Part shown: positions 7,114-33,583 of the stretch, one piece after another | Layout of the letters: each line of letters begins with the position of its first letter | How positions within the stretch are numbered: the stretch's first letter is position 1 | Assembly: GCA_035499655.1 (NCBI GenBank) | Contig: DATJYL010000181.1 | Span: 1 to 33,583, forward strand | DNA length: 33,583 bases | Reading direction: 5' to 3' | Source of the DNA: Pirellulales bacterium | Lineage (GTDB): Bacteria > Planctomycetota > Planctomycetia > Pirellulales > JADZDJ01 | Translations under genes and position numbers: made by a program | The notes under the pieces: model-generated | Seen by the model: only the letters and a program-made list of their open reading frames with translations | Database searches by the model: none | What the model was told of the DNA's origin: nothing

Positions 7114-8169
7114 TTAACTCGCTGCGCATTCAGGCCTGTCGCCGGTGACCGTGAAGCCCAGCTCTTCAATCATTTTATAATCGGCTTCCGGGGCTTGCCC
7201 TCTGGTCGTTAGATAATCGCCCACAAACACGGAGTTGGCCACGTACAATCCGAGGGCCTGTAAACTGCCCAAGTGCAATTCGCGACCGCCGGCAATCCGG
7301 ATTTCGCTGGCCGGATTGACCAGCCGCAACAGGCACAGCGCTTTCAAGCAATAGCGCGGATTTAATCGCTGACTTCCCGCCAAGGGAGTGCCGTCGATCG
7401 CATTGAGAAAATTGAGCGGGATCGATTCCACCTGCATGTCGCGCAGCGCAAAAGCCATGTCGACCACGTCGGCGTCGTGCTCCCCCATGCCGATGATGCC
7501 ACCGGAGCACAGCTCCAATCCGGCGGCACGCACGGACTGCAACGTATCGACGCGGTCTTGCCAGGTGTGCGTAGTGCAAATTTCCGGATAGAAACGTTGG
7601 CTGGTGTTCAAATTGTGATTCACCTTGTCAACGCCGCACGCTTTCAATCGCAGGGCTTGCTCCGGCGTCAATAATCCCAGGCAAGCGCACACATTCAGCC
7701 CATATTGTTCCTTGATTTTCGGCACGATGTATTCCACGGCTTCCATTTCGCGCTCCGTCGGTCCCCGAGCCGAAATCACCAAACAATAGGTGCTGGCGCC
7801 CCGCTCGTGACATACCCGCGCCGCATCGAGCAGCTTGCTTTCTGAAATCAGGTTGTAAACCGGAATTTCCGCCTGCGACACTTTCGATTGCGAACAGTAG
7901 CCGCAATCTTCCGGACATAACCCGCTTTTGGCGTTCATTAAGAAGTACAGCTGCACCGTGCGGCCCCAATGACGATGGCGAATTTTGTGGCAGGCCGCAA
8001 TCAGATCGAGCAATTCGACATCGGGCGATTGCAGCACGGCCAGCGCTTCATCGCGGCTCAGTTGATGGCCGTCCAGAACTCGCTGAGCCAGCTCATGCCA
8101 GCGCGAAGGGGAGGAGGCCGAATGATGTTCGTTCTGCAGTTCGTTCGGAAACGTAGCAGGTTGTGGCAT
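7114..8169 (-). CDS. bioB: Biotin synthase (radical SAM)
   Basis: Inserts sulfur into dethiobiotin, the last step of biotin synthesis. The radical-SAM CxxxCxxC cluster site is in KSGLCPEDCGYCSQS (C85, C89, C92). The family motifs YNLISE, CACLGLLT, HNLNTS, CSGGIIGMGE, and the C-terminal IRIAGGRE and NSVFVGDYLTT also match BioB, covering both the SAM core and the residues around the second iron-sulfur cluster. The 351-residue length is normal; the first ~22 residues (HHSASSPSRW) are a non-conserved extension. ATG 8169 is the start. Upstream, the divergent spacer to the PSP1 gene carries a small hairpin, but no recognisable BirA operator was seen. No other bio genes are present. The glycoside hydrolase gene follows closely, an unrelated partner. 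Confidence 0.95.
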   Translation of the reverse strand: MPQPATFPNELQNEHHSASSPSRWHELAQRVLDGHQLSRDEALAVLQSPDVELLDLIAACHKIRHRHWGRTVQLYFLMNAKSGLCPEDCGYCSQSKVSQAEIPVYNLISESKLLDAARVCHERGASTYCLVISARGPTEREMEAVEYIVPKIKEQYGLNVCACLGLLTPEQALRLKACGVDKVNHNLNTSQRFYPEICTTHTWQDRVDTLQSVRAAGLELCSGGIIGMGEHDADVVDMAFALRDMQVESIPLNFLNAIDGTPLAGSQRLNPRYCLKALCLLRLVNPASEIRIAGGRELHLGSLQALGLYVANSVFVGDYLTTRGQAPEADYKMIEELGFTVTGDRPECAAS

Positions 8170-8200
8170 GGAAAAACTTCAGAATTTAATGTTTTAGAAA

Positions 8201-8223
8201 CGGTGCTTACACCGCGCTTGCGG
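8201..8223. repeat. Short overlapping palindromes in the bioB/PSP1 divergent spacer
   Basis: CGGTG (8201-8205) pairs with CACCG (8210-8214) over a 4-nt loop, and the overlapping CCGCGCTTGCGG (8212-8223) is also self-complementary at its ends. The second resembles the palindrome at the end of ribE (2110-2119). The role is unknown. It lies ~35 bases upstream of bioB on that gene's strand, so it could be in its leader. Confidence 0.3.
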
Positions 8224-8349
8224 CTTAGCAAAGACATACTATCCGATTGACCAGTATGCCCTGAAAATGCCGCCAGCGAAAGGTGATTGCCCCTGCGCGA
8301 GACCAAAAATCGGCTTGGCAATGGCCGCCTCGTAACCGACAATAACGAT

Positions 8350-8916
8350 ATGTCGCGGCATCACTTTGTACGAGTGGGTTTAATGGGGCACGTCGGCCGG
8401 TTCACTTCCGTCGACGCCGTCGCTTATCCCCGCGCCAGCCGCGTCGTTGTCCGCACCGGCCGGGGCTTGGAAACCGGCGAAGTGCTGGGCCCGTCCGAAG
8501 AAGCGGCAACCCATGGCAATACCGACGGTTCGATTCTCCGCGGTCTGACCGTGGAAGACGAACTGCTAGTGGCCCGGCTGGAAAAGAACCGGCAGAAAGC
8601 GCTGGAGGCATGCACGGCGCGCCTTGCGCAGCGGGGCATTACAGCCACGTTATTCGACGTGGAGCATTTGTTCGACGGCCGCTCGTTGTTCTTCTATTTT
8701 TTGGGCGAAGTGACGCCGGAAATCGAAGCCATTACCGCCGAGCTGGCCGAAGTGTATGATGCCGCCGCGGAGTTTCGTAAATTTTCCGAAACGCTGACCG
8801 CCGGTTGCGGCCCCGGCTGCGGCACAGAAGAAGGCGCCGGTCATGCCAGCGGCGGTTGCACACTGTGCGCCAAAGCCTGCGCTGTCGCTGGAGCGTGTGG
8901 AACGAAACGAAAATAA
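8350..8916 (+). CDS. PSP1-domain protein with Cys-rich C-terminal tail
   Basis: The 188-residue product carries a PSP1 domain, the family of Bacillus RicT/YaaT, which acts in a complex affecting RNA maturation and phosphorelay signalling. Diagnostic segments are FVRVGLMGHVGRF near the start, RTGRGLETGEVLG, and the C-terminal DVEHLFDGRSLFFYFLGE (residues 103-120). The final ~35 residues contain six cysteines (C153, C157, C170, C173, C177, C183) in CGPGCG and CTLCAKAC arrangements, which suggests an iron-sulfur or zinc site. The ATG at 8350 is preferred over upstream in-frame codons because the domain begins there. It is divergent from bioB and convergent with the small TPR-like gene. The exact role in planctomycetes is not known to me. 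Confidence 0.85.
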   Translation: MSRHHFVRVGLMGHVGRFTSVDAVAYPRASRVVVRTGRGLETGEVLGPSEEAATHGNTDGSILRGLTVEDELLVARLEKNRQKALEACTARLAQRGITATLFDVEHLFDGRSLFFYFLGEVTPEIEAITAELAEVYDAAAEFRKFSETLTAGCGPGCGTEEGAGHASGGCTLCAKACAVAGACGTKRK

Positions 8917-14134: not shown

Positions 14135-15943
14135 TTACCCCACCAGCGCGCTGTGGCTGGCGCTGTCGTGGGCCAGATCGGCTTGGGTGGCGTCGGATGA
14201 GCCGCGAGTGCGGGAGCCTTTCGAGGCGACGTCTGCGCCGGCTTCGCTGTCGTCGCCGCTGGATGGATCGGCGCCGGTGCTCGATTGAATGCCGCCGACA
14301 ACCGTATGGTCCGCTGCACCGGCCACCGTGGGCATGCCATCGCGGCTGACGCCGCCGTTGGTTTGCCACCACGCTTGCGCATCAGCGGCAGTCCACCGGC
14401 CGTGCAACGGAGTCGCGGCCAACTCCGCGCCCAATGTGGCAACATCGGGGAAACGATCGGCCGGCTTCTTCTGCAGGCAGCGCAGGACAATCTGCTCCAA
14501 TTCGGACTGAATGCCGGGTTGCAGCTTCGATGGCGGCGTCACGTTTTTGTTAGCGTGAGCGAGCAACACCTTCACCGCGTTGTCGCCTTCGAACGGCGGA
14601 TGACCCGTCAGCAAGTAGTACGCCACCGCGCCGAGCGCGTAAATATCGCTGCGGGCATCGGGTTCGCCGTCACCGGCCGCTTGCTCTGGCGCCATGAACA
14701 GCGGCGAGCCGGTGATCGAACCTTGCTGCGTAAGCGTGACATCGCCGTGGCCCGTCATCAGCGGCTTGGCTAGGCCGAAATCCAACAGCTTGGCGACATC
14801 ATAAACGCCGCCTCGCTCCGCGGCGAAAATGTTGCCCGGCTTGATGTCGCGATGCATCAGTCCCAGGCCGTGCGCTTCGGCCAGGGCACCACAGATTTGC
14901 TCCAGTAACCACACCACTCGGGCCGGAGCCATGGGCCCGTGCTGTTCGACCAGGTCGGCCAGGCTTTTGCCGGGCAGGTATTCCATGACGTAGTAAAACG
15001 TGCCGTCGTCGGTGTGGCCGTAGTCGAAGATTTCGATGGTGTTCAAATGCGTGAGCTTGGCCGTGGCCTGCACTTCGCGATGGAAGCGGGCCAACGACGT
15101 GGGATCGGCCGCGTTGCTGGGCTTGATAAGCTTGATGGCCACAGGGCGCTTCATCAGTTGATGCTCGGCCAAATGCACTTCTCCCATGCCTCCGGCGCCT
15201 AGCAGGCGCTTGAGTCGATACTGCCCCAACTGTTTGGCTTCGAACGCTTCGCGCCGCAAGCGATTGATGGTGTGAACTCCCCAAGTGCCGATGAACGCGG
15301 CTAGCGCCATGGTCATGAAAATCTTGGAAATGATGTTCGGCCCAACCATGCTCCCGTAAATGGGAAGCATGACCGCGGCTACAATGCAAATGGCTGTTGG
15401 GGTAACCGCGAACAAGCCGAGCACCCAAGCGGCGCGCCTCCAGGTGTTGGGAATGTACAGCGAGTAGGTGAGAATCAACAGCATCCACGGCGCGGTAATG
15501 CCAATTAAAAACGGATCGCCGCTGCGGATGGCCACCCATTGCATGGCAATAAAATACAGCGACGGAACGCCGAAAATGATCAACTCAGCAATCCGCAATG
15601 TGGATAGTTCATAAGTGCACTTCTGGCACAGCCGGCCACCGATCAAAAGCAGGAACAGCGACGTCAGCCCGTGAAAAAGGAGTAGGAACATTTCTTCCGG
15701 GCTATGATAATTGACCAAGAACAATTGCCGCAGAAAGAAGACCGCGAACCCGCCGCCCAATAACAACGCTGACATGCGCAGCCGACTGCGCAGCAGCGAG
15801 CGGGTTTCTTTCGACATGTGCGGGCTGCTGCCTTCGCACATGGCAACTTTGCAGCATGGGCCGGAATGCGAGTGTTCGGCAGAGCCCAACAGCGGCAAAC
15901 CGGCGGCCACAACGGTAGCATGATTGGACGAATTGGAAGACAT
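14135..15943 (-). CDS. Membrane-anchored Hanks-type Ser/Thr protein kinase
   Basis: The 602-residue product has a cytoplasmic N-terminus with several cysteines. Roughly six hydrophobic helices span residues ~57-226, and a complete eukaryotic-like kinase domain spans ~242-510. Visible kinase motifs are the glycine loop GAGGMGEV (249-256), the ATP-binding Lys in VAIKLI (K271), HRDIKPGN (364-371), DFG (388-390), SPLFMAPEQ (413-421) and SDIYALG (432-438). All catalytic residues are present, so it should be active. The C-terminal ~90 residues are low-complexity, rich in Ser, Ala, Gly and Asp. Unlike PknB-type receptors, the membrane part precedes the kinase and no extracellular sensor domain is evident. 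It is upstream of leuC on the same strand with a ~190-base gap, so a separate promoter for leuC is likely. The 256 bases upstream hold no gene that I can support. Confidence 0.92.
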   Translation of the reverse strand: MSSNSSNHATVVAAGLPLLGSAEHSHSGPCCKVAMCEGSSPHMSKETRSLLRSRLRMSALLLGGGFAVFFLRQLFLVNYHSPEEMFLLLFHGLTSLFLLLIGGRLCQKCTYELSTLRIAELIIFGVPSLYFIAMQWVAIRSGDPFLIGITAPWMLLILTYSLYIPNTWRRAAWVLGLFAVTPTAICIVAAVMLPIYGSMVGPNIISKIFMTMALAAFIGTWGVHTINRLRREAFEAKQLGQYRLKRLLGAGGMGEVHLAEHQLMKRPVAIKLIKPSNAADPTSLARFHREVQATAKLTHLNTIEIFDYGHTDDGTFYYVMEYLPGKSLADLVEQHGPMAPARVVWLLEQICGALAEAHGLGLMHRDIKPGNIFAAERGGVYDVAKLLDFGLAKPLMTGHGDVTLTQQGSITGSPLFMAPEQAAGDGEPDARSDIYALGAVAYYLLTGHPPFEGDNAVKVLLAHANKNVTPPSKLQPGIQSELEQIVLRCLQKKPADRFPDVATLGAELAATPLHGRWTAADAQAWWQTNGGVSRDGMPTVAGAADHTVVGGIQSSTGADPSSGDDSEAGADVASKGSRTRGSSDATQADLAHDSASHSALVG

Positions 15944-18020: not shown

Positions 18021-20255
18021 CTACAGCTTGAAATGGAACGTGCGCTGTAGGAATCGCCATAAACGCCAGCCTAGCGAGTGCCAGGGACCGTCGATTTTAG
18101 CTTGCCCTTTTAGGCCTGTCAGGAAATTTAATTCGTCGTCTTCCAGTGGGGCGCGGGCTTCGTAAGCAACACTGGCCGGACGCAGGAGACCTGTTTCGTC
18201 GGGCTTGGTTTCAATACTGCCGCCGGTTTTGTTGGAAAGCGCCTTGGGAACCACCTTTAACGGTTCGTTCGAAATTTCGGTGATTTCGCTGCGGAAGGTA
18301 ACGCCCTTCATTTCGTCGAGCATGATCTTCACATGTTGCCCCGGAAACACCTGATCAATATCGGACTGATCGACCACCAGCACGGCTTCAAATTTTCCGG
18401 GGTCGCCGATTTTGCAGAACAACGTGGAGGCCTTGAGCGTGGCGCCGATGTTTTGTTTCTCCAGCGGGGTGCCGTGCCAGTTGGGCAACTTGCCATCCGA
18501 CGGCGAGTGGAGTGGCACGGACGGAGGCGGAATCACTATGCCCGCCCGATGTGCGACCAGGTGCAGGTGATCGACCTCGGTTTGTTTTTTCTTCAGTTGC
18601 TCTTCAATGGCCACCAGCGATTTTTGCACTTCGGGAATGGAATCGGCCGCCCTGCGATTTTCGTGTTCTTCCAATCGCAAGGCCTCCATTTGGGCCTCAA
18701 GCTGATTGCGTCGCCCAGTCAAATCGGCGATTGCCAATTCCAATTCGGAACTTTTTAAGTCGGCCAGCGGAGCGCCCGCCTGCACGGTGTCGCCCGGTTG
18801 GACATGCACAGTTTCGATCTCACCCGCCACGTCGACGTACACCGCATCGGCATTTTGCGGCTCGACTGTCAGATAACAAAATACATGATAGGGGAATGGC
18901 ACAAACACAATGGCGGCCAGGACTCCCAGCACGATGGCCAGCGTGGCATAAAAGCGCGGCTTCTTCACTTCATTGATCCTTCCCGGTACGTAAAAAAATT
19001 TCCCCAAGCTCCACAATGGCCGACCGATCAAGCTGGCAATGGACGCCATTGCAATGATCTGGCCTATAATTTCCAAACGATAGGGTTGAAACACCCGAAA
19101 CAGGAAAAACAAAATCGAAAACATGACCACCCAGGTGTAAATCGAGGAGGCCACGGTGTACAGCATGAACCAAAACTGATTACGCGTGGGCAGGAACGGA
19201 TCCTCCGGTTGTTCCAGCCCCAGGCACCATTCGCCTAGTTTACGGTTGAGAATCGACGTGGCCTTCTGCCGCAAGTTGGGAATTTCCAGGACATCGGACA
19301 GAATGTAATAGCCATCGTACCGCAACAACGGATTGCCGTTGAACACCACCGTGCTGACCGAGCAGACAAACATGGTGCTTAAGCAGATGTTGTTCAGCAG
19401 TCCCGGCTCGCTGAACCACCAGATGAACGTAGCAATGGAAGCAATGCATACTTCCACGTACATGCCGGCGGCGCCGATGAACGCCCGATGCCATTTATTG
19501 GGCAGCATCCAGGAGTCGGAAACGTTGCAATACAAGCAGGGGGTGAGAACCAGGAACATCACGCCCAGCTCGTGACATTCGCCGCCGAAATGCTTGCACG
19601 ACAACCCGTGGCCAAACTCGTGCAAAATTTTGGTGAATACCATCGCCGCGCCTAGCCAAATCCAATTGCTGGGACCGAAGAATTGGTGAAACCCAGGCAG
19701 CTTGGCGCGGAACGTGTCGAATTGCACCAGCACTAATGTCAAAGCTGAGGCCAACAGCAACAGGCAAAAGGACGCGGCTTGTTTGCTAAAGAACCAATCT
19801 ACCTTCGGCTGCAGCCAATTAAAAAACCGTTCCGGATCGACTCCCTTCAAGCGAATGGCCAGCAAATTGGAAACGGTGCCCCAAAATTCGCGCTTTTTGC
19901 GCTCCCACCGCAGTTTGAGCAACTGCTTGCCTTGTCCCGGCACGGCAGCAATCACCAGGGCGCTTTGATGCAGCATGCCGATCAGACGGCCTAACTCCTC
20001 CAAGGTAATTTTCTGTGGGGCGAATTCCTTTTCGAACCGCTGCCGAAGGTCATCCAGGCTTGTCTTCCCATCAAGCCAATTCAACAGCGCGAATTCCTCC
20101 TCCTGAAAACGGAAGTAATTCAAGCCCACCGGGTCTTTCACGATCCAGTATTGCCGGCCCTGGTAGCGCTGGCGGGTCACCTGCAAATCGGGGCGTTTGC
20201 GAATGGCCAGCGGCCGTGCGGAAGAGGAAACAAGACTATCGGCAAGGGTGGGCAT
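18021..20255 (-). CDS. PqqD-like / M50 metalloprotease / HlyD fusion membrane protein
   Basis: The 744-residue product has three parts. Residues ~20-105 resemble a PqqD-like winged helix (DPVGLNYFRFQEEEFALLNWLDG, then FAPQKITLEELGRLIGMLHQ). Residues ~155-455 are a polytopic M50 (site-2) protease-like region with HEFGH (212-216) and the third-ligand motif NPLLRYDG (308-315, D314). After the last helix, residues ~465-700 form a HlyD-type half: VDVAGEIETVHVQPGDTVQ, a coiled-coil hairpin (~500-565), and the second lipoyl half. All metal ligands are present, so it may be an active protease or a Zn-dependent transporter module. ATG 20255 is chosen because the upstream in-frame codons fall in an intergenic repeat. 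It is the last gene of the three-gene adaptor set; the HlyD gene is 88 bases upstream. Confidence 0.88.
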   Translation of the reverse strand: MPTLADSLVSSSARPLAIRKRPDLQVTRQRYQGRQYWIVKDPVGLNYFRFQEEEFALLNWLDGKTSLDDLRQRFEKEFAPQKITLEELGRLIGMLHQSALVIAAVPGQGKQLLKLRWERKKREFWGTVSNLLAIRLKGVDPERFFNWLQPKVDWFFSKQAASFCLLLLASALTLVLVQFDTFRAKLPGFHQFFGPSNWIWLGAAMVFTKILHEFGHGLSCKHFGGECHELGVMFLVLTPCLYCNVSDSWMLPNKWHRAFIGAAGMYVEVCIASIATFIWWFSEPGLLNNICLSTMFVCSVSTVVFNGNPLLRYDGYYILSDVLEIPNLRQKATSILNRKLGEWCLGLEQPEDPFLPTRNQFWFMLYTVASSIYTWVVMFSILFFLFRVFQPYRLEIIGQIIAMASIASLIGRPLWSLGKFFYVPGRINEVKKPRFYATLAIVLGVLAAIVFVPFPYHVFCYLTVEPQNADAVYVDVAGEIETVHVQPGDTVQAGAPLADLKSSELELAIADLTGRRNQLEAQMEALRLEEHENRRAADSIPEVQKSLVAIEEQLKKKQTEVDHLHLVAHRAGIVIPPPSVPLHSPSDGKLPNWHGTPLEKQNIGATLKASTLFCKIGDPGKFEAVLVVDQSDIDQVFPGQHVKIMLDEMKGVTFRSEITEISNEPLKVVPKALSNKTGGSIETKPDETGLLRPASVAYEARAPLEDDELNFLTGLKGQAKIDGPWHSLGWRLWRFLQRTFHFKL

Positions 20256-20260
20256 GGAAA

Positions 20261-20346
20261 ATGATAAATGGCCAATGACCAAAATCCCAATGACCAATAA
20301 TCGGCGAATATTCCCTAATTGGTCATTGGTGCTGGGTCATCCGTCA
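20261..20346. repeat. ATGACCAA-type inverted repeat between hlyD and the M50 gene
   Basis: CCAATGACCAAT (20287-20298) and ATTGGTCATTGG (20318-20329) are perfect 12-base reverse complements with a 19-nt loop. Another CCAATGACCAA occurs at 20272-20282, and a GGTCAT word at 20335-20340. On the minus strand the element begins with the TGA stop of the HlyD gene and ends ~5 bases before the M50 gene ATG. It therefore fills the whole spacer between the two genes. Its first 30 bases match the repeat at the epimerase stop at 27 of 30 positions. Confidence 0.7.
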
Positions 20347-21282
20347 TTTCAGTTGAAAGGTCATGGTGGCCGGCATGCCGGGTCGAAGCAGCCATTGTCC
20401 GTCTTCTTTGCGATTGTCGACTTCGGCCCGGACTTCGTATTCAAGCTCGCCTTGAACTTCGGGATCGACGAACACAATTCTGCCCGGGAATTGCACCTTG
20501 CGACCGCCGGCCAGTTCCACTTGCACTACAACTGAACGATCTGCAACGTCGCCAGGGCTGTATTTGGCAATATCTAGCCGGCCTTCCACTCGCAACCGAT
20601 CCATTCGAATGACGCGGACCACGATGTCGCCGGGTTTGACCCACTCGCCCAAATGGGAATAAATTCTTTGGACTACGCCGTCAATGGGCGCGGCAATCTG
20701 CCGGCGCTTGATCGATTCGTCGGCCATTTCCACTTCGGCTTGTTTGGCTTCCGCGGTGAAGCCATCGACCGTGTGCTGCTTGCGCGCCTGTTCAATGGCC
20801 AAATCGGCCTTGTGCCAGGCAAATTCTTTTTCCTTCATTTCCACGTCCGAGACCGAGCCGGCGGCCTTTTTATTGGCTTCCTGATCGCGCAAGTATTCGT
20901 ACTTGGCAACGTCGGATGTGGCGGCAGCGTACCGAATATCGATATCGCTGTTCGATTTTTCGGACGCTCCATTGAATTCGGCCAGTGCGTTTTTGCGTTG
21001 TTTTTGCGCTTGAATGTCATCGATTTGCGCCAGCAGCGCATTGAGAGGCACTTGATCTCCCTCGCGAACATTGATTTTTGTCAGCACACCCGCTTCTTGG
21101 GCAGGAACCTTGGCTTCTTCATCGAGCCTGACCTCGCAATGATCGACCGTGACGTTGGCCGATGACGCTGCGGCGCCGGCGGCGGGCGAATTAGCGGCCA
21201 CGCTGGATGCCGGCGGATATTGGCCTGAAGCGATCGTGGTCGCGGCAGCGCAAATTACGAATAGAAAAATGGATGTTCGCAT
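20344..21282 (-). CDS. Periplasmic HlyD/RND-type membrane-fusion adaptor
   Basis: The 312-residue product has an N-terminal signal sequence (MRTSIFLFVICAAATTIASG) with cleavage near SGQ, so it is exported. The first lipoyl half is at ~60-95 (AKVPAQEAGVLTKINVREGD, then LNALLAQIDD). A helical hairpin spans ~100-200, rich in Lys, Glu and Ala. The second half is QIAAPIDGVVQRIYSHLGEW, then VKPGDIVVRVIRMDRLRVEG. It should form the periplasmic tube linking an inner-membrane component to an outer-membrane channel. ATG 21282 is supported by GGAG eight to eleven bases upstream and by the signal peptide. It is the middle gene of the set; neither a pump nor a TolC-like channel is encoded next to it. Confidence 0.88.
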   Translation of the reverse strand: MRTSIFLFVICAAATTIASGQYPPASSVAANSPAAGAAASSANVTVDHCEVRLDEEAKVPAQEAGVLTKINVREGDQVPLNALLAQIDDIQAQKQRKNALAEFNGASEKSNSDIDIRYAAATSDVAKYEYLRDQEANKKAAGSVSDVEMKEKEFAWHKADLAIEQARKQHTVDGFTAEAKQAEVEMADESIKRRQIAAPIDGVVQRIYSHLGEWVKPGDIVVRVIRMDRLRVEGRLDIAKYSPGDVADRSVVVQVELAGGRKVQFPGRIVFVDPEVQGELEYEVRAEVDNRKEDGQWLLRPGMPATMTFQLK

Positions 21283-21432
21283 GGCACTTTCTCCGGGTAA
21301 ATCCGCTGTTTTTCTCGGTGAGTCCGCTGCTTGGTCGCGGTCTAGTTTGGAATCGGTAGAAACGTCTGTCCCCAAACGCCTGCAGTTTTCTCAAACAAAA
21401 CGGCTGGGGACAGCCGTCGCTGCATTTTCGCC

Positions 21433-23469
21433 TCACCAACGGAAAAGAATTTTCGATTGGATGAACTCAAATACATCGTGGAACCAAACGTAGCCCAAGC
21501 TGCGGCGGCCGCAATCGACTTTCGCCGACACGCCGGCACCTTTGATGAGCACTTCCGGGTTCAAATCGGCCTTGTTAATGGACACTAGCAACCTCACCGT
21601 ATTGCCTTCCTCCCCCTCGACTTCGGCCTTTTGCTGAATTTCCTTGACCGTGCCGTGCAACCAGACGCCCGCCTTGGAATTGAGCATGTAGGTGACGTCC
21701 AAATCTTCCTTGTGCAATTCTTTTTCGGCATGTTTGATGTGCCCCATACGGTCTTCGGGCATTAGCACTTCCAACTCCCAATCCTTGGTAGGATCGACCA
21801 CGGTCATCAGCACTTGCCCTTTTTCCACCGGGCGATTGTTCAGCAGGTCTTCCAACTTGAACGTGACCACTTTGCCGTCAATCGGACTGCGCACGGTGAG
21901 TTTTTTCTTTTCGTCTTCAAGCAATTCTCGTTGCTGCTGGTACTCGTTCCGGCTGGCACGGGCCATGGCCAGCTCGCCTTCGTTTTTGGCGCGGTCCTCG
22001 GCGGAAAGTTGTTCGTTGTAGCCTGCGTTTTCCAGCGCATGAATTTTGGCGTCGTTGGCCGCTTCCTTCCCAATCATATCGACCAGTTCCGAGTCGAGCT
22101 TGGTATTTTGCAATTCCACCAGGGGCTGATCGGCCTTAACGTCAGCACCAGACTTAACCAAAACCTGAAGGACCAGGCCGTCGACTTGAGCAAACACATC
22201 TCGCTTGACCACCGGCTCCAGCGTGCCTTTGCCGTGCAATTCAAATTCCTTCGGCACGAAAAAAAGCGAGGTGATGATGGCCACGACCGCCACCACGGCT
22301 GCCAACGTTTTAGGAAGCGTGCGGGCGGCTACGAGAAACCTGGACTTACCCAACGTGCGCCACACCGGCATTAGAAACAAACTGTTGTGCTCCATCGCGT
22401 TGGAAAGCGCCATGGAGCCGTGCTCGGCCACAACATCGATGCGGCGGCGCATGGCGGCTGGAATGCCGTCCGTATTGATCTGCTCGATAATCAGCGCGCC
22501 AATATATTCCGGCTTGTGCGGCGGCTGATTTTCCACCTCTTGCTCTTCTTTATCGTGTGGTTTGGCCAACGGCAGCACGACGACTGTTTTCGAATGCGAT
22601 TCGTCCACGTAGGCTTCAACCGTTTCTTCCACTTGCGGCGCCAAATCACGGGTATCGCCGGTGTACCACAGCGGCTCGCCGGCTCGGACGACCACCGTCG
22701 CCAACTTCCCTAGCATGGTTACGGTGTTGGATCGCTTGTCGAACGTTTCCTGTCCGCTGACGGCTTCAATGCGACTGCGACGACCTTTGTGAATGGCCAG
22801 CGAAACACGGTCGCACTCAATAAGCCGCCGGCCTTCATTGGCCAGAGTGTACGCAGTGACTCGCGGCTCCAGGCTGCTATGCGCCAGCAGCGTAAATTGT
22901 TCCAGTTGCGTCCAAATGGCCTGGCGATCGGTATACAGCCGCAACTGGCGGGTTTTCAAAAAATCTTCCGCCAAATCGCACATCTGCATCAAAAACCGCA
23001 GATAGCCTCGCTCCACGGCCGGACGCCCGCCGGTGCGCTGGAAAATTTCGACCAGCCCACGGGTTTCCTGATCGCTTTTCAAAATCCCCAGGACCAGCAG
23101 CATGTCGGTGGGGTTGGCCGAATCGTCCTCGGCATTCACGTACTTAGGCTGCACAACTGCACCTTGTCCGCCGGTGAGAATTTTGCGCAGCAGCTTGCCG
23201 TGGCGTTGTTGCTCCTCTTGGCTTTCGTGCAACCGGGTTTCAGCCAGATTGACTTGGGCGCTGAGGGTCAAACGTCCTTCTTCGTCCAACGTCCACACAG
23301 CGCCGCCAATGGCAGCCAGCGCCGCCACCACCCGGTGCAAAAAACCCTCGTAAAATTCTTCGGGCGAAACTTCGGCCCGGGCCAACCCTTCGATCTCTTG
23401 CACCAAGCCGCGGATTTGCTGCCGCGTTTGATCGACCAGCTCGGGTTGATACGATTGTTCAGTACTCAT
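21433..23469 (-). CDS. GAF-GAF-TM-HlyD adaptor protein
   Basis: The 678-residue product begins with a soluble region without signal peptide. Residues ~35-170 and ~190-360 look like two GAF-type ligand domains (the first around FLHRVVAALAAIGGAVWTLDEEGRL, the second around IECDRVSLAIHKGRRSRIEAVSGQ and GALIIEQ). A single membrane helix lies at ~386-405 (TLPKTLAAVVAVVAIITSLFF). Residues ~410-660 are a HlyD-type adaptor (LEPVVKRDVFAQVDGLVLQVL, a coiled-coil hairpin with KNEGELAMARASRNEYQQQRE, and KKLTVRSPIDGKVVTFKLEDLL). The layout places a possible cytoplasmic sensor and a periplasmic adaptor in one chain. It is the first gene of the set, so a promoter is expected in the 297-base spacer upstream. 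GAF ligand and transported substrate are unknown. Confidence 0.87.
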   Translation of the reverse strand: MSTEQSYQPELVDQTRQQIRGLVQEIEGLARAEVSPEEFYEGFLHRVVAALAAIGGAVWTLDEEGRLTLSAQVNLAETRLHESQEEQQRHGKLLRKILTGGQGAVVQPKYVNAEDDSANPTDMLLVLGILKSDQETRGLVEIFQRTGGRPAVERGYLRFLMQMCDLAEDFLKTRQLRLYTDRQAIWTQLEQFTLLAHSSLEPRVTAYTLANEGRRLIECDRVSLAIHKGRRSRIEAVSGQETFDKRSNTVTMLGKLATVVVRAGEPLWYTGDTRDLAPQVEETVEAYVDESHSKTVVVLPLAKPHDKEEQEVENQPPHKPEYIGALIIEQINTDGIPAAMRRRIDVVAEHGSMALSNAMEHNSLFLMPVWRTLGKSRFLVAARTLPKTLAAVVAVVAIITSLFFVPKEFELHGKGTLEPVVKRDVFAQVDGLVLQVLVKSGADVKADQPLVELQNTKLDSELVDMIGKEAANDAKIHALENAGYNEQLSAEDRAKNEGELAMARASRNEYQQQRELLEDEKKKLTVRSPIDGKVVTFKLEDLLNNRPVEKGQVLMTVVDPTKDWELEVLMPEDRMGHIKHAEKELHKEDLDVTYMLNSKAGVWLHGTVKEIQQKAEVEGEEGNTVRLLVSINKADLNPEVLIKGAGVSAKVDCGRRSLGYVWFHDVFEFIQSKILFRW

Positions 23470-23766: not shown

Positions 23767-25593
23767 CTACCACACGACAGTGATGCCAGTATTGATGCCC
23801 TGCAGCACAATGTCGCCGTGATTGTTCACCTGCGTGCCGCCGTCGCTCGTCAGACCGAAGCTATTAAAGTCGTATTGATCAGGGGCCAGTGCCGCACGAT
23901 CGATGAAATACACATTGTACCCGGCGTGGAAGCTCACTGAGGAGCCTAGCGGAATTACTCCTTGGATTCCCAGTTCGGTCACGTAAGCCACACGGGTTTT
24001 CGAGCCGCTGGCCGGGCCAATGAACTGATCGACAGGGTCAAACGCAATCTGGTTCTCATGCGCGGCATTGGCCATGACGCCGAATTTGGCGTCGAAATCG
24101 AAATCGAGGAGACCGAACATTTGCCACCGGCCCAAAATGCCGATTTGGCCGCCGTTCATGTTATTCAACGAATTGGCGTCGTAGAAGCCGTTTCCCGTGG
24201 CTAGCGAATTCGTTAAGTATTGCGCGTGTTCATCAATTTCCATGTAACGATATCCGGCGAGTATCTCGAAGCTGCCAAACGGAAAGATCAAGTTAAACTC
24301 GCCGGTTTGAATAGCACTGAGATATCGAAATGTCACGGCATCCACGTCGAAGAACCCGGCCGGGAACGCGCTGGAAAAACCGCCCAACTCGCCAGGCAGA
24401 ACCAGGTCGGCGTTACCGGAGTTTGGACTTCCGACACTTTGCTGTGCGGCAAACGTGGCAATCTTTGTGTAGGTGCCCTGGTAGGTGATGCCGCTGGGCC
24501 CAATCAACTCCAAATGTGCACGGCCACCGTAATCCCAATCGAAAGTCACATCTCTGGAATTAAGGAGTGGCGTGAACGTGCCGTCGAAGTTATCGAATAA
24601 CACAAGCGTCCGGCTGGTTCCGGCATTTCGCGTCATGGCCAAATTGTCGTAGCCGGCGTTCCAGCAGTAACCTAATTTTCCGGGAAACATGGACCCGTGG
24701 CACAGGCCACACAGCCAACCGAAACAACCGGGGCCACAATCCTGGCACTGATCGCCATCGCATTGGCACTGGCCATTTCCTTGGCTTGCATCCTGTGTAC
24801 CTGCGCCGCCATTGCCCATGGGCATTCCTGCACCTTGCGGATTAGAACCCGGCGTCAACACGCTGGAAGGGGAGCCCATCCCGTTTTCCGCCCCGGCTTG
24901 ATACGACGCCATGCGGTACGGGTTATTCGATGCAGTTCCCATCGGGAACTGTTGGTAATTAACGTCGGCATGGGCGCTCCCCTTGTAGTAAAGCAAACCG
25001 TTTTCGCAGGTCACGCCCGGCGGCAGTTTCATCGGAGGCGGCGAGGCCTTGGCGATTTGCCCCTGGGGACCATGATATTCTTTATCTTGCGGCGCCGATT
25101 GCGTCGGATTCGACGCCTGATTCGCCCCGCCGGACATCCCTGAATGATTTTGGCCAGCAGGCGGGTACATTCCCTGAGACATTGCATTGGGCCCGTAAGC
25201 GCCAGCATAACCCTGGCCAGATCCGGCATTGGTATACCCTGCGTTGTAGCCAGTGCCGGAATACATGCCATTGCCGGGCAAGCTCGGATACATTCCGCCA
25301 GCGGGCATTGCGCCGTAGTTATAACCAGCCGGCAGGACGGGATATCCGCCGCCGGTATTCGGGCCATACCCGTATCCATACGTGCCTGGCGGCATTCCGG
25401 GCTGCGCGTAGGCTGCCGGCGGCATCATCGGCTGAGCGTAACCGGCCTGAGACATCGACCCCGGGGCGTATGCTGCCTGTGGGTTTGGGCCGGTGCCATA
25501 CATTGGGTACGGCTGAGGATACGACTGCGCACTGGCGATCGTCGCCATTAGGGCGGACAAAAATCCAACCAGAGCCAGAGGTAATCGTGTCAT
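23767..25593 (-). CDS. BBP7-like outer-membrane beta-barrel protein with low-complexity N-terminal region and Cys cluster
   Basis: The 608-residue product has a Sec signal peptide (MTRLPLALVGFLSALMATIASAQ). Residues ~24-180 are rich in Pro, Gly, Tyr, Met and Gln with near-repeats such as AYAQPGMPPG and GYAQPMMPPA. A Cys cluster spans residues 276-310 (C276, C278, C283, C286, C290, C295, C298, C310; CQDCGPGCFGWLCGLCHG). The C-terminal ~280 residues look like an outer-membrane barrel, with alternating strands (SFEILAGYRYMEIDEHAQYL, then VSFHAGYNVYFIDR) as in planctomycete BBP7 proteins. ATG 25593 is supported by GGAG about eight bases upstream. Likely role is outer-membrane pore or structural surface protein; substrate is unknown. 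It lies directly upstream of the adaptor operon on the same strand, but a hairpin separates them. Confidence 0.72.
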   Translation of the reverse strand: MTRLPLALVGFLSALMATIASAQSYPQPYPMYGTGPNPQAAYAPGSMSQAGYAQPMMPPAAYAQPGMPPGTYGYGYGPNTGGGYPVLPAGYNYGAMPAGGMYPSLPGNGMYSGTGYNAGYTNAGSGQGYAGAYGPNAMSQGMYPPAGQNHSGMSGGANQASNPTQSAPQDKEYHGPQGQIAKASPPPMKLPPGVTCENGLLYYKGSAHADVNYQQFPMGTASNNPYRMASYQAGAENGMGSPSSVLTPGSNPQGAGMPMGNGGAGTQDASQGNGQCQCDGDQCQDCGPGCFGWLCGLCHGSMFPGKLGYCWNAGYDNLAMTRNAGTSRTLVLFDNFDGTFTPLLNSRDVTFDWDYGGRAHLELIGPSGITYQGTYTKIATFAAQQSVGSPNSGNADLVLPGELGGFSSAFPAGFFDVDAVTFRYLSAIQTGEFNLIFPFGSFEILAGYRYMEIDEHAQYLTNSLATGNGFYDANSLNNMNGGQIGILGRWQMFGLLDFDFDAKFGVMANAAHENQIAFDPVDQFIGPASGSKTRVAYVTELGIQGVIPLGSSVSFHAGYNVYFIDRAALAPDQYDFNSFGLTSDGGTQVNNHGDIVLQGINTGITVVW

Positions 25594-26026
25594 CGGTGAT
25601 CTCCACCCCTTACAACGGGCAATGTGCCCGCTCCGCCATGCATTGGGCATGGGTTGGGCTTTCTAACTGGGACAGGAGGCACCGACAAAGCACTGCGGCA
25701 GCGCTCGGCGAGCCCCCTTATAACCGGTTTCATCGGAACAACCGGCCATTCAACTCAATTGGAAAATGTCATACCGACGTCAAAGACGGCAAAGTCAGGG
25801 TGTTTCAGGTATGTTTTGGGTAGCCTGGGAAAAGTTTGACAGCAAATCTGCATGGCCCTTGCTAGCTGTCCGGCCTGGTGCCTGGCACACAGTGGTTCGG
25901 GTAGAATGACCGAGTTAGGATGATTTCCTAAGCTGATTTGCCAGACTCTGTGGCAAAGCGGTCTGACTCTGCTTCAAGACACCAAATTATTCATCACTTC
26001 GACCGCACGCATGGGAGAATGCCGCT
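25594..26026. other. Divergent intergenic region, no gene seen
   Basis: This 433-base spacer separates the barrel gene (-) from the small conserved protein (+) and must hold both promoters, but no convincing -35/-10 pair was found. It contains the perfect 11-base palindrome GTGCCTGGCAC (25878-25888). I recall GTGCC-TGGCAC-like words recurring between genes in planctomycetes, which would make this a dispersed repeat. The short reading frames in it show no protein-like features. Confidence 0.4.
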
Positions 26027-27294: not shown

Positions 27295-29034
27295 TTAAAC
27301 AGTTGCGAAGAAATCATCCAGCACGGCGCTGGAACTGTCTGCATCGGCGTCATACATTCCGTGGAAGTGGCGCGACAAATACGTGCCGTCATCGTGGGAA
27401 TCGGAAGCGAGCTGCAGCGACGCGGTGTCGTCATAACGGAGGGATCCGGCTGTTGACGCCGAGGAAACGAGATTGCTATCGGGATTCGTAAACTGATCCA
27501 ACGAAGAAGCATCTCTGGAGATGGATGCACCGTCGTCCACATCAGTGTCAGCAGTTAAGGCTGAGCCCCCGTCTTCAGAATCGCTATAGGCCGTTGCTTT
27601 GGTTGGCGATTTGCCAAAAAAGTACCACGATCCATTGCTGCCACCGACGATCGTGCGGGTCATGGGCGACACAAAGGTTGAACCATTAAAGGATACCAAA
27701 TCTCGAATTACGAGGTTGGCTAATGGCGTGCCGCGGCCCGAAGCCAAATCGTAGCCGGGGCCCGCCGCGTTTCCGGTTATTCCCAAATTATAGCCCTGGC
27801 CAGGAAATATCGTGCCATAAAAATTGTTATTGCCTATGGTAATATCGTGGAAATCGGCGCTGGGCAATTTATAGATGATGGATTGAACGTTGGCCAATGA
27901 CGTCTTTCCTTGAAGTGCTCGGCCCTGATCAGCGATGGCAATCAATGCAGACCATTGAGGCGCGCCGGCGCTGGTGCCACCAATTTCTTCCCAGCCTCCA
28001 AACGCATAGGACGAGTACACCGCGTAGCCCGTAGCAGGATCGCCATCATAAGATACGTCCGGTGTTCCTCGTCCCGTGAGGCCAAGTCCTGCCTGATAGC
28101 TTGGCACATTCTCCGCAGGTATCGACAAAGAAAATGCACCAGTAAGAAGATCTTGCGTGAGTAGCCCGCTCTGCCCACCACCGCCCGCGCCGCTTAAATT
28201 ATTCCAGACCGTTTCGCCGGAGTAATTGTTAGAAGGTGTTAAGATCAAAGAAGTGCCGCCGACGCTGAGAACATTGGGAGAAACCGAGGGATACGCGGCA
28301 GGCCCACCTGTATCGCCGGCCGAAAAGACGAAGGACACATTGGCATGACCGCTTGGCGTGGTGTAGACATTATCCCCTGCGCTTTCGGTCAACGTATATT
28401 CTTGTCCGCCGTAACTATTCGATACCACCACCACCCCGGCAACTTGCTTCGCATAATTAACGGCAATTTCGAGATTGCTAAGGCCCAAGAAAGGAAGGCT
28501 GTTGTCGGTTGCCTCGACTAATAAAATATTGGCCGCCGGAGCAATGGCATGTGCCCATTCCACGTCTAGAGCAATTTCTCCCGCCCAGTCGGTGTTGTTG
28601 GTTGGCAACAATGTCGAACCGTGCTCGTTGACAATTTTGAAACTCGGCGGAGCGGGCAAACCAAATGTGGTATCAAATGTGTTCAAATCGCTCACAATCG
28701 TTGGATTATTAAACGCGTCAACAATGGCAATGGTGGTTCCCTTGCCATTGGCCTGAATCCCACCTGGAAATGCAATGCTGTTAAACCCATAAGCTTGACG
28801 AATTTGAGTCGGGGTAAAGCCCTCGGGGGTGAGCGGAGCCAAATTGGGCTTTGCTGACGGAAGGATGACGATATCCGGCGTCGCCACGGGTTCGGTGGAT
28901 ACTGATGCAGCACTCAGCACTTGCCGAATTTCGAGGTGCTCAAACCGGCACAGCCGCCAGCGGTAAAAGCGCCGGCGTCCAACTCGGCCATTGGAAGTTG
29001 CCCCCGAAGTAGATGTGCTTGTGAAATGCGCCAT
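27295..29034 (-). CDS. Secreted S53 (sedolisin/kumamolisin-type) serine peptidase
   Basis: The 579-residue product starts with an Arg-rich leader and a planctomycete-type exoprotein signal around HLEIRQVLSA (residues 33-42). The catalytic domain follows from ~residue 68 (LTPEGFTPTQIRQAYGF). Sedolisin catalytic residues are visible: E153 and D157 (GEIALD), D241 (FSAGDTGG) and S355 (GGTSAGAPQW). The calcium-site segment is AGPGYDLASGRGTPL. The ~180-residue N-terminal propeptide usual for this family is missing. After ~residue 470 a ~110-residue tail rich in Asp and Ser follows (DADADSSSAVLDD at the end), which may be a surface-retention segment. ATG 29034 starts the leader; upstream in-frame codons are not protein-like. 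It is divergent from the giant exoprotein gene, so both may be controlled from the shared 687-base spacer. Confidence 0.9.
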   Translation of the reverse strand: MAHFTSTSTSGATSNGRVGRRRFYRWRLCRFEHLEIRQVLSAASVSTEPVATPDIVILPSAKPNLAPLTPEGFTPTQIRQAYGFNSIAFPGGIQANGKGTTIAIVDAFNNPTIVSDLNTFDTTFGLPAPPSFKIVNEHGSTLLPTNNTDWAGEIALDVEWAHAIAPAANILLVEATDNSLPFLGLSNLEIAVNYAKQVAGVVVVSNSYGGQEYTLTESAGDNVYTTPSGHANVSFVFSAGDTGGPAAYPSVSPNVLSVGGTSLILTPSNNYSGETVWNNLSGAGGGGQSGLLTQDLLTGAFSLSIPAENVPSYQAGLGLTGRGTPDVSYDGDPATGYAVYSSYAFGGWEEIGGTSAGAPQWSALIAIADQGRALQGKTSLANVQSIIYKLPSADFHDITIGNNNFYGTIFPGQGYNLGITGNAAGPGYDLASGRGTPLANLVIRDLVSFNGSTFVSPMTRTIVGGSNGSWYFFGKSPTKATAYSDSEDGGSALTADTDVDDGASISRDASSLDQFTNPDSNLVSSASTAGSLRYDDTASLQLASDSHDDGTYLSRHFHGMYDADADSSSAVLDDFFATV

Positions 29035-29721: not shown

Positions 29722-32700
29722 ATGCTCCCGGAACAGCGCGGTTTGTTGGCATCGTGGTTTAATCGTTTTCGCACTTCGCGGCGCGCTCGCCGCAAGGGCA
29801 GGGGCCGTCTACAAGGCTTCACGCGACTGGCTCAAGTCGAATCGCTTGAAGACCGCCGCCTGCTGACGAATACCGTCTTCGTTGACTTCGGCACGCGGCT
29901 TAACACAGTTACTATGCCTGAAGATACCGTTGGAAACGCAGGCGGCTGGGATACGTGGGGATATGTACCCCCGAACAATGGCGTCAATTGGGTGTTTGGG
30001 CCCGAATTTAACGTGGCAGGGAACCCAAACATTACCTACACGCCGTTAAGAACGCTGTTCGCCAACAAGGGGGTTAGTTTCAATCTGAGCCAGATGCAAA
30101 CGGATTTCCCGTGGGAGTATCAAACCGGCACGCAAACGCCGTTGTCGCAATTGGACCTCCTGGAAGGTTCAATTATGAACATGCTTACGCAAATGTTTTT
30201 GCCGTTTAATATCACGGTGGAGGAAGTCACATCAACACATTTTGGTTCAGTCAACGTGACAGGGGCCGTGAACGATCCGGCAGATTTTTTAGGCGAAAAT
30301 AATCCGCTATACGATCCGAATACGTACGATCCGACGGCGATGCCACCGACGATCAATCGCGGACCGCTTTTCAACCCCATGCAGACAAACCCTACCACGA
30401 TGGCGCCTGACCAATATCAGGACGTGTACATTTTGGTGGGCGGCTTTACAATCGGCGGAACTCAAATTGGAAATAGCGCGTCGGATCCGGCGAATCCTGG
30501 AATTTTGGGCGTTTTTGGCGCAACCTCATACGATATCGACAGTGACACATTACAGCTTTCCACCAACCCTGCGCAGCGCTTCGTGGATCCCATGTATATG
30601 GATCCTAGCGACCCATCGGGCAACGGGCTTTTGCGATATTCGGACGGCGGAGTCGCGGTGAATGCCGACACCATCTTCGATCATTGGTTAGCGCAGCAAG
30701 CCAATCCGGCGGTCACTCCAATTAATTTGAATGTCACCATTGCGCAAGTTGCGGCTCAGGGTGCGGCAGAAACCTGGGGACTCTCTACGACCAGCGATGG
30801 ACAGCCGAAGCCATGGAACTCGTTTTTCGATACGAACATCGACATGCTGAACAGTTCCGACGTCATGCGCCAGGGCCCCTACACGGGGAACGAATATCCG
30901 ACTGATTTCAACATGCCGTTTTTCGAAAATTTCTATACGATGGTGGGCAGTTTGAACGAAGACCCAACGGATGTTCAAAATGCGTATGAACAGTTTGTAA
31001 ATGATCCGGACATTGGGCCGAGCGTTTACGCGTACATTACGGGGACAGGAGCGTACGACAAAATCGATATCACCGCCGATGCCGCAGATCCTACTATGGC
31101 GGATGTCACGATATCGCCATACTCCGACGCTTCCTTTGCCGATTCGTCGTTCATTTCGTCGTTTGCATACGATGCCGCGAATCCCACTGGTTACATGACG
31201 AGCGCGGCTAGTCCATATAGCTACACGGTTGATCTTTCGAGCGGTATTTTACTGATTGATGCCGGAAACAATGCGGATCAAATTTCCATTGATCCCGCAA
31301 TTTTTAACAATCTATTTGAGGTCTTTGTTTTTGGCGGAGAAGGTTTGACGAATGGACAAGTTGATAATTTGTCCATGGCCGGTGATGGTACGCAATCCGT
31401 CGCCGTAGCGCCGTCTAACATGAATCTGCAAACCTACAATTTCGCTATTAGTTACGAAACGGACATGGAGATTGTGGGGCCGACCTCCGTTACCCTCCTT
31501 GTGGCATCCGAGTTCGAAGACAATAGCACCATTCATCTGGAGAACTTCAACAGTCTGACCTACACCATGCCAGAATTCATGGGCGATGATTTCACGATCA
31601 CAGGCCAAAACGGTTCGAATCTGGTTTTGCCGCCTTCCGTCGGAGAAACCGACATGGTGATCGACGGTACCGCAGGCCCGACAACCTTATCACCGATCCC
31701 GGTTGGTGTAAGTAACGTTGAATTTACAAACATCGGCACGGTAACCGTTCAAGACCCGCTTGGTGCGACAGACGACTCAGTCGCGATTGATTCAACTGCT
31801 GGCTATGCTGACGGACTGCAAAACCTGGCCATTATTCTCGGGCCAGGCAACGATTCGCTCACGATCAATGGCCCGATCGATTTAACGCCGGGTGTGATGG
31901 GGGGCACGCTCACCTACGACGGTGGCCCGGGAACCAACACTTTGACCGTCAGCGACGATACCAACTGGGCCTTGACCGACAGCAGCTTGACCGACGGACT
32001 GGGCAATACGATTCAGTTTATCGGGGGCGTCAGCATCGCCGACATCACCGGGGGAATCGATCCGCATACGTTTTCGGTCGAAAATTGGTCCGGCGATGCC
32101 TTCCTTACCGCATTGGCAGGCGGCGATACCTTCAATATCGGCGACACGGCCCCCGTGGTCGGCAACGTGAGCATTGATGCCAGCGGGTTCGTCGGCGACC
32201 TGTTCAACGTCAAAAGTTTCACGGGCACTGGGAATTTCGATTTCACCGGTAGTTTTGGTGCCAATGTTTTCAACGTCAACACCACCGACATCACTTTATC
32301 TTTGCCGGCTATCGGTTCCGGCTCGGCGTCGGGCTACGCCGGTTCGGCCGTCAACTTGGCGACCACCAGCGGCAGCAAAACCGCTAAGCTGAACAGCACT
32401 GCCGGACTGTTTGTCGGCGAGGCAGTTGTGGGGCCCGATATTGCCACCGGCACGACAATTGCCGCCATTGTCAACACCACGACGATTACGCTTTCGACGG
32501 TAGCCACCGGCAGCGGGGTTAATGCAACGCTTATTGGGACGATTGGCGCCAACATTGTGCCTGTAACCTATACCACAACCAGTGGCAGCACCGACGTTAC
32601 CGTTTCTACCGTGGCGGGCATATCGGTTGGACAATCGATCGTCGGTACGAATATTCCCACAGGCACAACCATTAGTGGCATTAGCAATATGACGTTTGTC

Positions 32701-33583
32701 GGCGGCGATGGAGGCAATACGTTCAATATTACCGCTTGGAACGGAAACGGCTCGATCACCGGCGGCGCAGGAAATGACAACTTCTACATCGCCGCTTGGA
32801 CCGGCACCGGTCCGTTAATTGGTGGCGCGGGGGATGATGATTTCGTCTTCGGCACGCTTTCGATTATTAGCCCGTCAGGCAATGGCAATATCGATGCCAT
32901 TACTGATCCGCACACGATCATCGGCGGCAACGGCAACGACACGTTGACGCTGGACGATTCCGGCACCAACGGAGCCAAGAACTACACCATTGGCGCAACG
33001 TCGGTCAGCGACTCGTCCACGTTTGGCGGCGTCAATTTCGACAGCACGCTCGATAACATCGTGGTGATCGGCAGCCAGGGAGCCAACACGTTCCTCGTCA
33101 CGCCCAACAGCAAGGCTGCCATCACGATTGATGGCCAGCTCCCCACGACAATTCCGGGAGACACTCTTAACGTTGATCTGACGGGCACCAAGGGAGCGAA
33201 ACTAACGCCCAACGGACCATTCGGCGGCACCTTGACCTTTACGAGCGGTCAGAGACCAATCACGTATTCGAATATCGAAACCACGGTTCCAGATTTGACG
33301 CAAGTTGCCCAGCAACAGCAACAGAGTCAGCAGCAACAGCAAATGAATACTTTGCTGGGTGAACTCGAAAATGATCCGTTGCTCGTTGAAGCCGCCGACC
33401 CCGGCACCGCCAGCGCGCCTCTGGTGAAGCTGTACGACGTGAAAACGAATACCGTGTTGTTCAGCTTCGATGCTTACGAGACAACTTTCAAAGGCGGCGT
33501 CAGAGCGGAAATCGTGCCCGATGTCACCGGCGACGGCGTTCCTGACATCGTGGTTGCACCGGGTTCGGGACGGCTGGGCGAGG
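29722..33583 (+). CDS. Giant exported surface protein, 3' end outside window
   Basis: The frame runs open from ATG 29722 to the right edge (over 1280 residues). An Arg-rich leader ends in the planctomycete exoprotein motif SLEDRRLLT (residues ~41-49). Residues ~50-400 resemble a secreted metzincin-type domain (VFVDFGTRL near its start; LPFNITVEEV), but the expected HExxH position reads QGAAE (346-350, followed by TWGLS), so it seems catalytically dead. Beta-rich repeats follow. Two TTSGS...TGTTI modules start near residues 881 and 952. RTX-like GGxGxD segments are encoded at 32761-32790, 32821-32850 and 32923-32950. A Gln-rich stretch is at ~33310-33345. An FG-GAP-like VPDVTGDGVPDIVVAPG comes at the end of the window. 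Likely a cell-surface adhesin or matrix protein. AGG twelve bases upstream may be the ribosome site. Confidence 0.85.
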   Translation, partial: MLPEQRGLLASWFNRFRTSRRARRKGRGRLQGFTRLAQVESLEDRRLLTNTVFVDFGTRLNTVTMPEDTVGNAGGWDTWGYVPPNNGVNWVFGPEFNVAGNPNITYTPLRTLFANKGVSFNLSQMQTDFPWEYQTGTQTPLSQLDLLEGSIMNMLTQMFLPFNITVEEVTSTHFGSVNVTGAVNDPADFLGENNPLYDPNTYDPTAMPPTINRGPLFNPMQTNPTTMAPDQYQDVYILVGGFTIGGTQIGNSASDPANPGILGVFGATSYDIDSDTLQLSTNPAQRFVDPMYMDPSDPSGNGLLRYSDGGVAVNADTIFDHWLAQQANPAVTPINLNVTIAQVAAQGAAETWGLSTTSDGQPKPWNSFFDTNIDMLNSSDVMRQGPYTGNEYPTDFNMPFFENFYTMVGSLNEDPTDVQNAYEQFVNDPDIGPSVYAYITGTGAYDKIDITADAADPTMADVTISPYSDASFADSSFISSFAYDAANPTGYMTSAASPYSYTVDLSSGILLIDAGNNADQISIDPAIFNNLFEVFVFGGEGLTNGQVDNLSMAGDGTQSVAVAPSNMNLQTYNFAISYETDMEIVGPTSVTLLVASEFEDNSTIHLENFNSLTYTMPEFMGDDFTITGQNGSNLVLPPSVGETDMVIDGTAGPTTLSPIPVGVSNVEFTNIGTVTVQDPLGATDDSVAIDSTAGYADGLQNLAIILGPGNDSLTINGPIDLTPGVMGGTLTYDGGPGTNTLTVSDDTNWALTDSSLTDGLGNTIQFIGGVSIADITGGIDPHTFSVENWSGDAFLTALAGGDTFNIGDTAPVVGNVSIDASGFVGDLFNVKSFTGTGNFDFTGSFGANVFNVNTTDITLSLPAIGSGSASGYAGSAVNLATTSGSKTAKLNSTAGLFVGEAVVGPDIATGTTIAAIVNTTTITLSTVATGSGVNATLIGTIGANIVPVTYTTTSGSTDVTVSTVAGISVGQSIVGTNIPTGTTISGISNMTFVGGDGGNTFNITAWNGNGSITGGAGNDNFYIAAWTGTGPLIGGAGDDDFVFGTLSIISPSGNGNIDAITDPHTIIGGNGNDTLTLDDSGTNGAKNYTIGATSVSDSSTFGGVNFDSTLDNIVVIGSQGANTFLVTPNSKAAITIDGQLPTTIPGDTLNVDLTGTKGAKLTPNGPFGGTLTFTSGQRPITYSNIETTVPDLTQVAQQQQQSQQQQQMNTLLGELENDPLLVEAADPGTASAPLVKLYDVKTNTVLFSFDAYETTFKGGVRAEIVPDVTGDGVPDIVVAPGSGRLGE
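32362..32691 (+). repeat. Tandem protein-level repeat within the giant exoprotein
   Basis: Two segments share the pattern TTSGSxxxxxxTAGxxVGxxVxGxxIxTGTTIxxI, beginning at 32362 and 32575, 213 bases apart. The first is followed by TTTITLSTVATGSGVNATL. The pattern recalls a short beta module seen in phage tail and bacterial surface proteins. The two DNA copies have diverged, so this is an old duplication. Confidence 0.6.

Follow-up and report, generated by a model that had tools for sequence, protein, structure and literature searches.

What do three adjacent genes for HlyD-type adaptors do when no pump is encoded beside them? The question is raised by positions 18021–23469 of a 33,583-nucleotide stretch of a Pirellulales genome (the window, as we call the whole stretch analysed), where three minus-strand genes specify a GAF-GAF-HlyD protein, a HlyD protein and a PqqD-like/M50/HlyD protein, and where no ABC, RND or TolC gene adjoins this triad. 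On the basis of what can be observed directly, namely the domain make-up of the proteins, their conservation, the gene set of this genome and the tendency of LEPR-type genes to co-occur with it and to lie close by, we consider it likely that the triad makes up the inner-membrane and periplasmic portion of a secondary-SecA/HlyD/M50 secretion module, the substrates of which are mainly LEPR-XLL-tagged, often giant proteins devoid of a Sec signal peptide. The module itself was already published in 2015; what is new here is its likely substrate.

Architecture of the HlyD triad

All features described in this section lie on the minus strand. The three open reading frames were found as described by an earlier reading made from the sequence alone (hereafter the sequence-only reading), and HlyD-type domains pass the Pfam cut-offs in all three proteins of the triad, whereas the M50 and GAF scores of the window proteins are slightly under the cut-off, these domains being matched in most or many relatives. 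The GAF-GAF-TM-HlyD protein (21433–23469) contains GAF-like regions at about 22975–23367 and 22486–22860; neither reaches the threshold in the window protein, yet PF01590 is matched by 14 of 25 relatives and PF13492 by 10 of 25, which bears out the claim of two GAF-like domains in one protein. The stand-alone HlyD/RND_mfp-like periplasmic adaptor (20344–21282, in a frame open to 21375) has a signal-peptide-like start, and its RND_mfp-like match (90.6 bits) is just short of the 94.9 cut-off. The last gene (18021–20255, in a frame open to 20297) encodes a fusion of an RRE (PqqD-like) domain, an M50 site-2 protease and a MacA-like adaptor. As judged by close relatives, its start codon is the ATG at 20255, codon 15 of a 758-aa ORF, rather than the upstream TTG, which gives a protein of 744 aa; the residue numbers used below are those of the 758-aa ORF.

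Modelled with AlphaFold from 59 relatives, the M50 protein has a mean pLDDT of 90.4. Its residues 30–117 (19947–20210) form an RRE/PqqD-like domain, the best fold matches of which are RREs solved with a leader peptide, namely 5v1v_A (TbiB1 with leader; Z 10.1, 84 residues aligned, rmsd 2.7), followed by 6jx3_B (Z 10.0). At the sequence level, the window M50 protein taken alone matches neither PF05402 (PqqD) nor anything in a PDB sequence search, but PF05402 is matched by 11 of 23 relatives, and the family profile retrieves PqqD (3g2b, E 0.0018) as well as adaptors. The PqqD-like domain proposed from the sequence, for which a match to PF05402 had been suggested as a check, is thus recovered in the fold and in the family, though not by the Pfam model in the window protein itself.

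Residues 156–465 (18903–19832) constitute the membrane-embedded protease region, which displays hydrophobic segments and a SpoIVFB-like fold (residues 156–340 of the model match 8vjl_A with Z 9.0). The protease site of this region is intact and comprises the HEFGH zinc-site motif (residues 226–230; 19608–19622) and the NPLLRYDG motif with the Asp that is the third zinc ligand (residues 322–329; 19311–19334), the same motifs that had been numbered 212–216 and 308–315 from the ATG at codon 15. The protein has the features of an M50 site-2 protease, with HExxH and the distal Asp ligand in membrane helices of an S2P-like fold. The catalytic residues H226, E227, H230 and D328 are invariant among the 59 diverse relatives, which argues for a working protease rather than for a scaffold only. 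Finally, residues 466–750 (18048–18902) form a MacA-like periplasmic adaptor region (9qgy_G, Z 17.2, 227 residues aligned).

A SecA-like motor in the gene neighbourhoods

M50-HlyD homologues are present in 67 of 294 Planctomycetota genomes, in agreement with the recurrence in planctomycetes that the sequence-only reading had stated, and a wider scan, of 84,980 species genomes, gave 80 loci distributed among Planctomycetota, Verrucomicrobiota, Alpha-, Beta- and Gammaproteobacteria, Desulfobacterota and Nitrospirota. Methylobacterium extorquens AM1 likewise carries the module (META1p2399–2402). Clustering of the ORFs in 40 neighbourhoods of 20 kb yielded two further recurrent families, a SecA-like ATPase and a TolC-family protein. 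Neighbours were then counted within 8 kb at 102 homologous loci with a well-scoring M50 gene; the counts are lower bounds because many loci end at contig edges. The GAF-HlyD family is found at at least 81 of these loci, the stand-alone HlyD family at 63, a SecA-family gene (the SecA-like motor) at 40, a TolC-family OMF gene at 30 and DUF3467 at 10. The gene set as such recurs across Planctomycetota, Verrucomicrobiota, Proteobacteria and Nitrospirota. Linked pumps of the conventional types were sought and turned out to be rare, with an RND pump at three loci and an ABC-like ATPase (Walker A plus signature pattern) at two; the motor that is linked to the module is a different one.

The idea of an ATPase-free export system was given up once the SecA-like genes had emerged from the neighbourhood clustering, the recurring ATPase partner being a truncated secondary SecA that was published in 2015 and is present in this genome. 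The DEAD, PPXD and P-loop domains are present in all seven secondary SecAs tested, and SecA_SW (the wing/scaffold) is absent from all seven; SecA_SW is present in the canonical SecA of the window's genome.

This assembly of genes matches a module centred on 'secondary SecA_DEAD' proteins that was reported in 2015 by Kamneva, Poudel and Ward (PMC4452313), with the same three adaptor proteins, the same truncated SecA paralogue, an occasional TolC (OEP) and, in some genomes, a SecA encoded apart from its partners. These authors proposed that the M50 protein forms the membrane pore and stated that the biological role of the module was unknown. The PqqD/RRE domain and DUF3467 do not figure in the main text of their paper, nor does LEPR-XLL in its main-text passages (PMC4452313).

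The window triad is a member of this module with dispersed parts. M50-HlyD, HlyD and GAF-HlyD stand together in the window, and the same genome encodes, unlinked to them, the secondary SecA_DEAD on contig C185 (58% identity) and a system-type OMF (TolC-like, the OEP of the module) on contig C90 (E 4e-169); DUF3467 is found on contig C144. The triad is consequently 'without a pump' only locally, since the motor and the outer-membrane channel sit on other contigs; the sequence-only reading was correct about the immediate surroundings of the triad. As a counterpoint, a cluster of three genes with no SecA beside it might have been put to a different use.

DUF3467 is the only recurrent small gene near the module, and it is not precursor-like. 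It co-occurs with the module in 41 of 61 genomes and is also present in genomes without the module. Small DUF3467 proteins (about 100–130 aa, sometimes in tandem) are encoded directly beside the module at 8074–8430 in locus L033, 6271–7004 in L068, 7807–8112 in L112 and 7885–8178 in L129. We do not claim a role as a SecB-like chaperone for DUF3467 (model with a mean pLDDT of 78.5), given that the fold matches listed score low and point to unrelated proteins (at best Z 5.4, COMMD); SecB does not figure among these listed matches, which is no argument against such a role.

LEPR-XLL proteins as candidate cargo

Large ORFs near the module frequently start with a basic N-terminal stretch followed by LExR-x-(L/V/M)-(L/F), that is, by the LEPR-XLL motif (NCBIfam NF012209). 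LEPR-XLL proteins are often thousands of residues long, with open frames of up to about 18,000 residues, and a signal-peptide-like hydrophobic stretch is absent from 27 of 30 LEPR N-termini. Among the 294 planctomycete genomes, 36 have a LEPR-8K match at E <=0.05, and 33 of these 36 have M50-HlyD, compared with 67 of 294 overall (p 1e-21; this p-value and the following ones assume independent genomes, kinship being corrected in part, by family-level collapse only). At E <=0.01, M50-HlyD is present in 25 of 26 carrier genomes. After the collapse to families, it is present in 20 of 21 LEPR carriers versus 30 of 93 (p 5e-12), and in an independent gammaproteobacterial order in 18 of 19 LEPR genomes versus 48 of 195 overall (p 1e-11). 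Co-occurrence is accompanied by proximity: LEPR matches located within 5 kb of M50-HlyD number 15 of 83 in 41 genomes picked by M50 alone (0.37 expected), 9 of 22 in the gammaproteobacterial order (0.09 expected) and 5 of 116 in the planctomycete phylum sample (0.51 expected). A giant same-strand LEPR ORF immediately follows the M50 gene at four loci (L087, L109, L111 and L113).

Altogether, judging by the genes that surround it in several phyla, the module seems to export very large surface proteins bearing a short N-terminal 'LExR-x-LL' tag. The small RiPP-like or lipid cargo envisaged by the sequence-only reading is at odds with the associated genes, which encode large LEPR-XLL-type proteins, but its more general proposal, an envelope-spanning peptide or protein exporter in which a PqqD-type recognition domain is coupled to M50 and HlyD adaptors, is supported. 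The literature searched, which was mostly open-access, so that an earlier notice may exist elsewhere, contained no link between LEPR-XLL and the secondary SecA module and gave no export route for LEPR-XLL proteins.

In the window's genome, the gene directly downstream of the secondary SecA encodes a 921-aa LEPR-like Kelch-repeat protein (L076, 6759–9524, minus strand). About eleven LEPR-like N-termini were found in this genome at E <0.02 with a motif profile (A5, which included both LEPR-like sequences of the window), the scores of four of them being inflated because the profile was trained on those four. The two window genes lie 4–6 kb upstream of the triad. One candidate substrate (27295–29034, minus strand, in a frame open to 29124) has a basic N-terminus with LEIRQVL at 28915–28935; the other (29722–33583, plus strand, cut by the contig end) has a basic N-terminus with LEDRRLL at 29845–29865 and a repetitive body. 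Both motifs are variants, and NF012209 matches neither protein at E <=5. Note that the former product looks S53-sedolisin-like by eye, owing to a GGTSAGAP motif, and has no Pfam match at E <=1. Elsewhere in the same genome, a 2760-aa protein (L165, 9590–17872, plus strand) displays a LEPRLML N-terminus together with transglutaminase-like, DUF11 and FixG_C-like domains.

LEPR-8K remains unmatched in 34 of the 67 planctomycete M50-HlyD genomes, partly because variants like those of the window escape the model. Moreover, the gammaproteobacterial order of G313 contains a second, lower-scoring M50-HlyD subtype (e.g. in G369, G463 and G505), for which LEPR partners number 2 of 23 versus 16 of 25. 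Some M50-HlyD copies must therefore carry other cargo; other leaders probably exist, and the second subtype perhaps uses one of them. The same observations would fit a module that exports proteins by a different signal, LEPR-XLL proteins being only frequent passengers (e.g. of surface-protein islands). We regard this explanation as improbable: in two gene sets, LEPR genes lie near M50-HlyD 40 to 100 times as often as expected, many carrier proteobacteria possess no more than one or two of them, often within the operon, and the motif sits at the N-terminus and resembles a leader, which is what an RRE would require.

A possible export route and its alternatives

If LEPR-XLL proteins are the substrates of the module, a plausible route can be drawn. 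On the cytosolic side, the LEPR tag would be bound by the RRE/PqqD domain that the M50 protein carries, as the RRE structures suggest, and the truncated SecA would feed the unfolded chain, in keeping with its co-occurrence and with known SecA chemistry. The M50 protein would be the point where the chain passes the inner membrane; it may form or border the passage and, given its invariant catalytic site, may also clip off the LEPR tag. The three adaptors and the TolC-family protein would, judging from their folds, provide a conduit to the cell surface, with the GAF domains possibly gating or sensing; the order of these steps and the independence from SecYEG are presumed. We are somewhat inclined to view this as a distinct pathway, in which an RRE recognises the N-terminal LEPR-XLL leader and the fused site-2 protease cuts it, while a SecA paralogue without wing/scaffold drives the chain through a HlyD/TolC conduit, so that giant proteins would be exported from Gram-negative bacteria with no need for an ABC transporter and perhaps not even for SecYEG. 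If so, this export route would join a SecA motor with T1SS-type parts, and the RRE, a domain hitherto associated with small natural products, would have a part in exporting giant surface proteins of planctomycetes, verrucomicrobia and proteobacteria. Linking the secondary-SecA module, known since 2015, with the LEPR-XLL proteins gives each of them a testable explanation.

Alternatively, the triad could export small ribosomal peptides of the RiPP type, with the M50/RRE protein acting as a leader peptidase, as in daptide and epipeptide pathways, and with no dedicated ATPase. The M50 protein indeed combines an RRE fold with M50, like the RiPP intramembrane proteases of these families; it matches NCBIfam daptide_HExxH (NF041824; 2e-53, 181.9 bits, aligned over residues 43–421) and YydH/LiaK (7e-12), and EpeP, the M50 protease that acts in the epipeptide pathway, has been proposed to export its own peptide as well as to cleave it (PMC10885120). 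However, both family cut-offs are widely missed (the curated one for daptide_HExxH is 300 bits), the window protein is fused to an adaptor and RiPP tailoring genes are lacking. Neighbourhood clustering revealed no recurrent radical-SAM, methyltransferase or short precursor gene; the recurrent neighbours are SecA, OMF and giant ORFs instead, and we deem a RiPP exporter unlikely.

The proposed secretion module resembles type I secretion systems (HlyB-HlyD-TolC) in its HlyD/MacA-type adaptors, TolC-type channel and large repetitive cargo, but differs from them by a SecA-like ATPase and a site-2 protease in place of the ABC transporter and by a proposed signal that is N-terminal. Neither the ABC transporter that accompanies the adaptor in type I secretion nor the RND pump that does so in tripartite RND efflux is encoded in the window. 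That the triad supplies adaptors and regulation for the efflux of small molecules or lipids, sharing RND or ABC pumps encoded elsewhere, is very unlikely: the MacA-like region (Z 17), the RND_mfp-like HlyD gene (90.6 bits for a cut-off of 94.9) and GAF domains that could be ligand sensors are compatible with it, but linkage to ABC (2/102) or RND (3/102) genes is far scarcer than linkage to the SecA-like motor (40/102), and an RRE and a protease are both unexpected in an efflux pump. In accessory Sec (SecA2) systems, a second SecA serves a subset of substrates, as it would here; unlike SecA2, the secondary SecA is linked to HlyD, M50 and TolC rather than to SecY2, and lacks SecA_SW.

Some neighbouring genes and one locus deserve mention in their own right. 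Just upstream of the triad, 23767–25650 (minus strand) encodes a BBP7-like outer-membrane barrel protein with a Gly/Tyr/Pro/Met-rich N-terminal half (PF07585, 20.5 bits, under the 26-bit cut-off); it was considered as the outer-membrane partner and rejected, its relatives being absent from the 40 homologous loci searched. A contig labelled Saprospiraceae (L100, JAJCYI010000090.1) carries the M50-HlyD, GAF-HlyD, OMF and DUF3467 genes of the module, which reflects either horizontal transfer or a mis-binned contig. Finally, a PknB-like Ser/Thr kinase is encoded downstream of the triad (14135–15943, minus strand), and kinases of the same cluster are found near the module in L050, L067 and L071.
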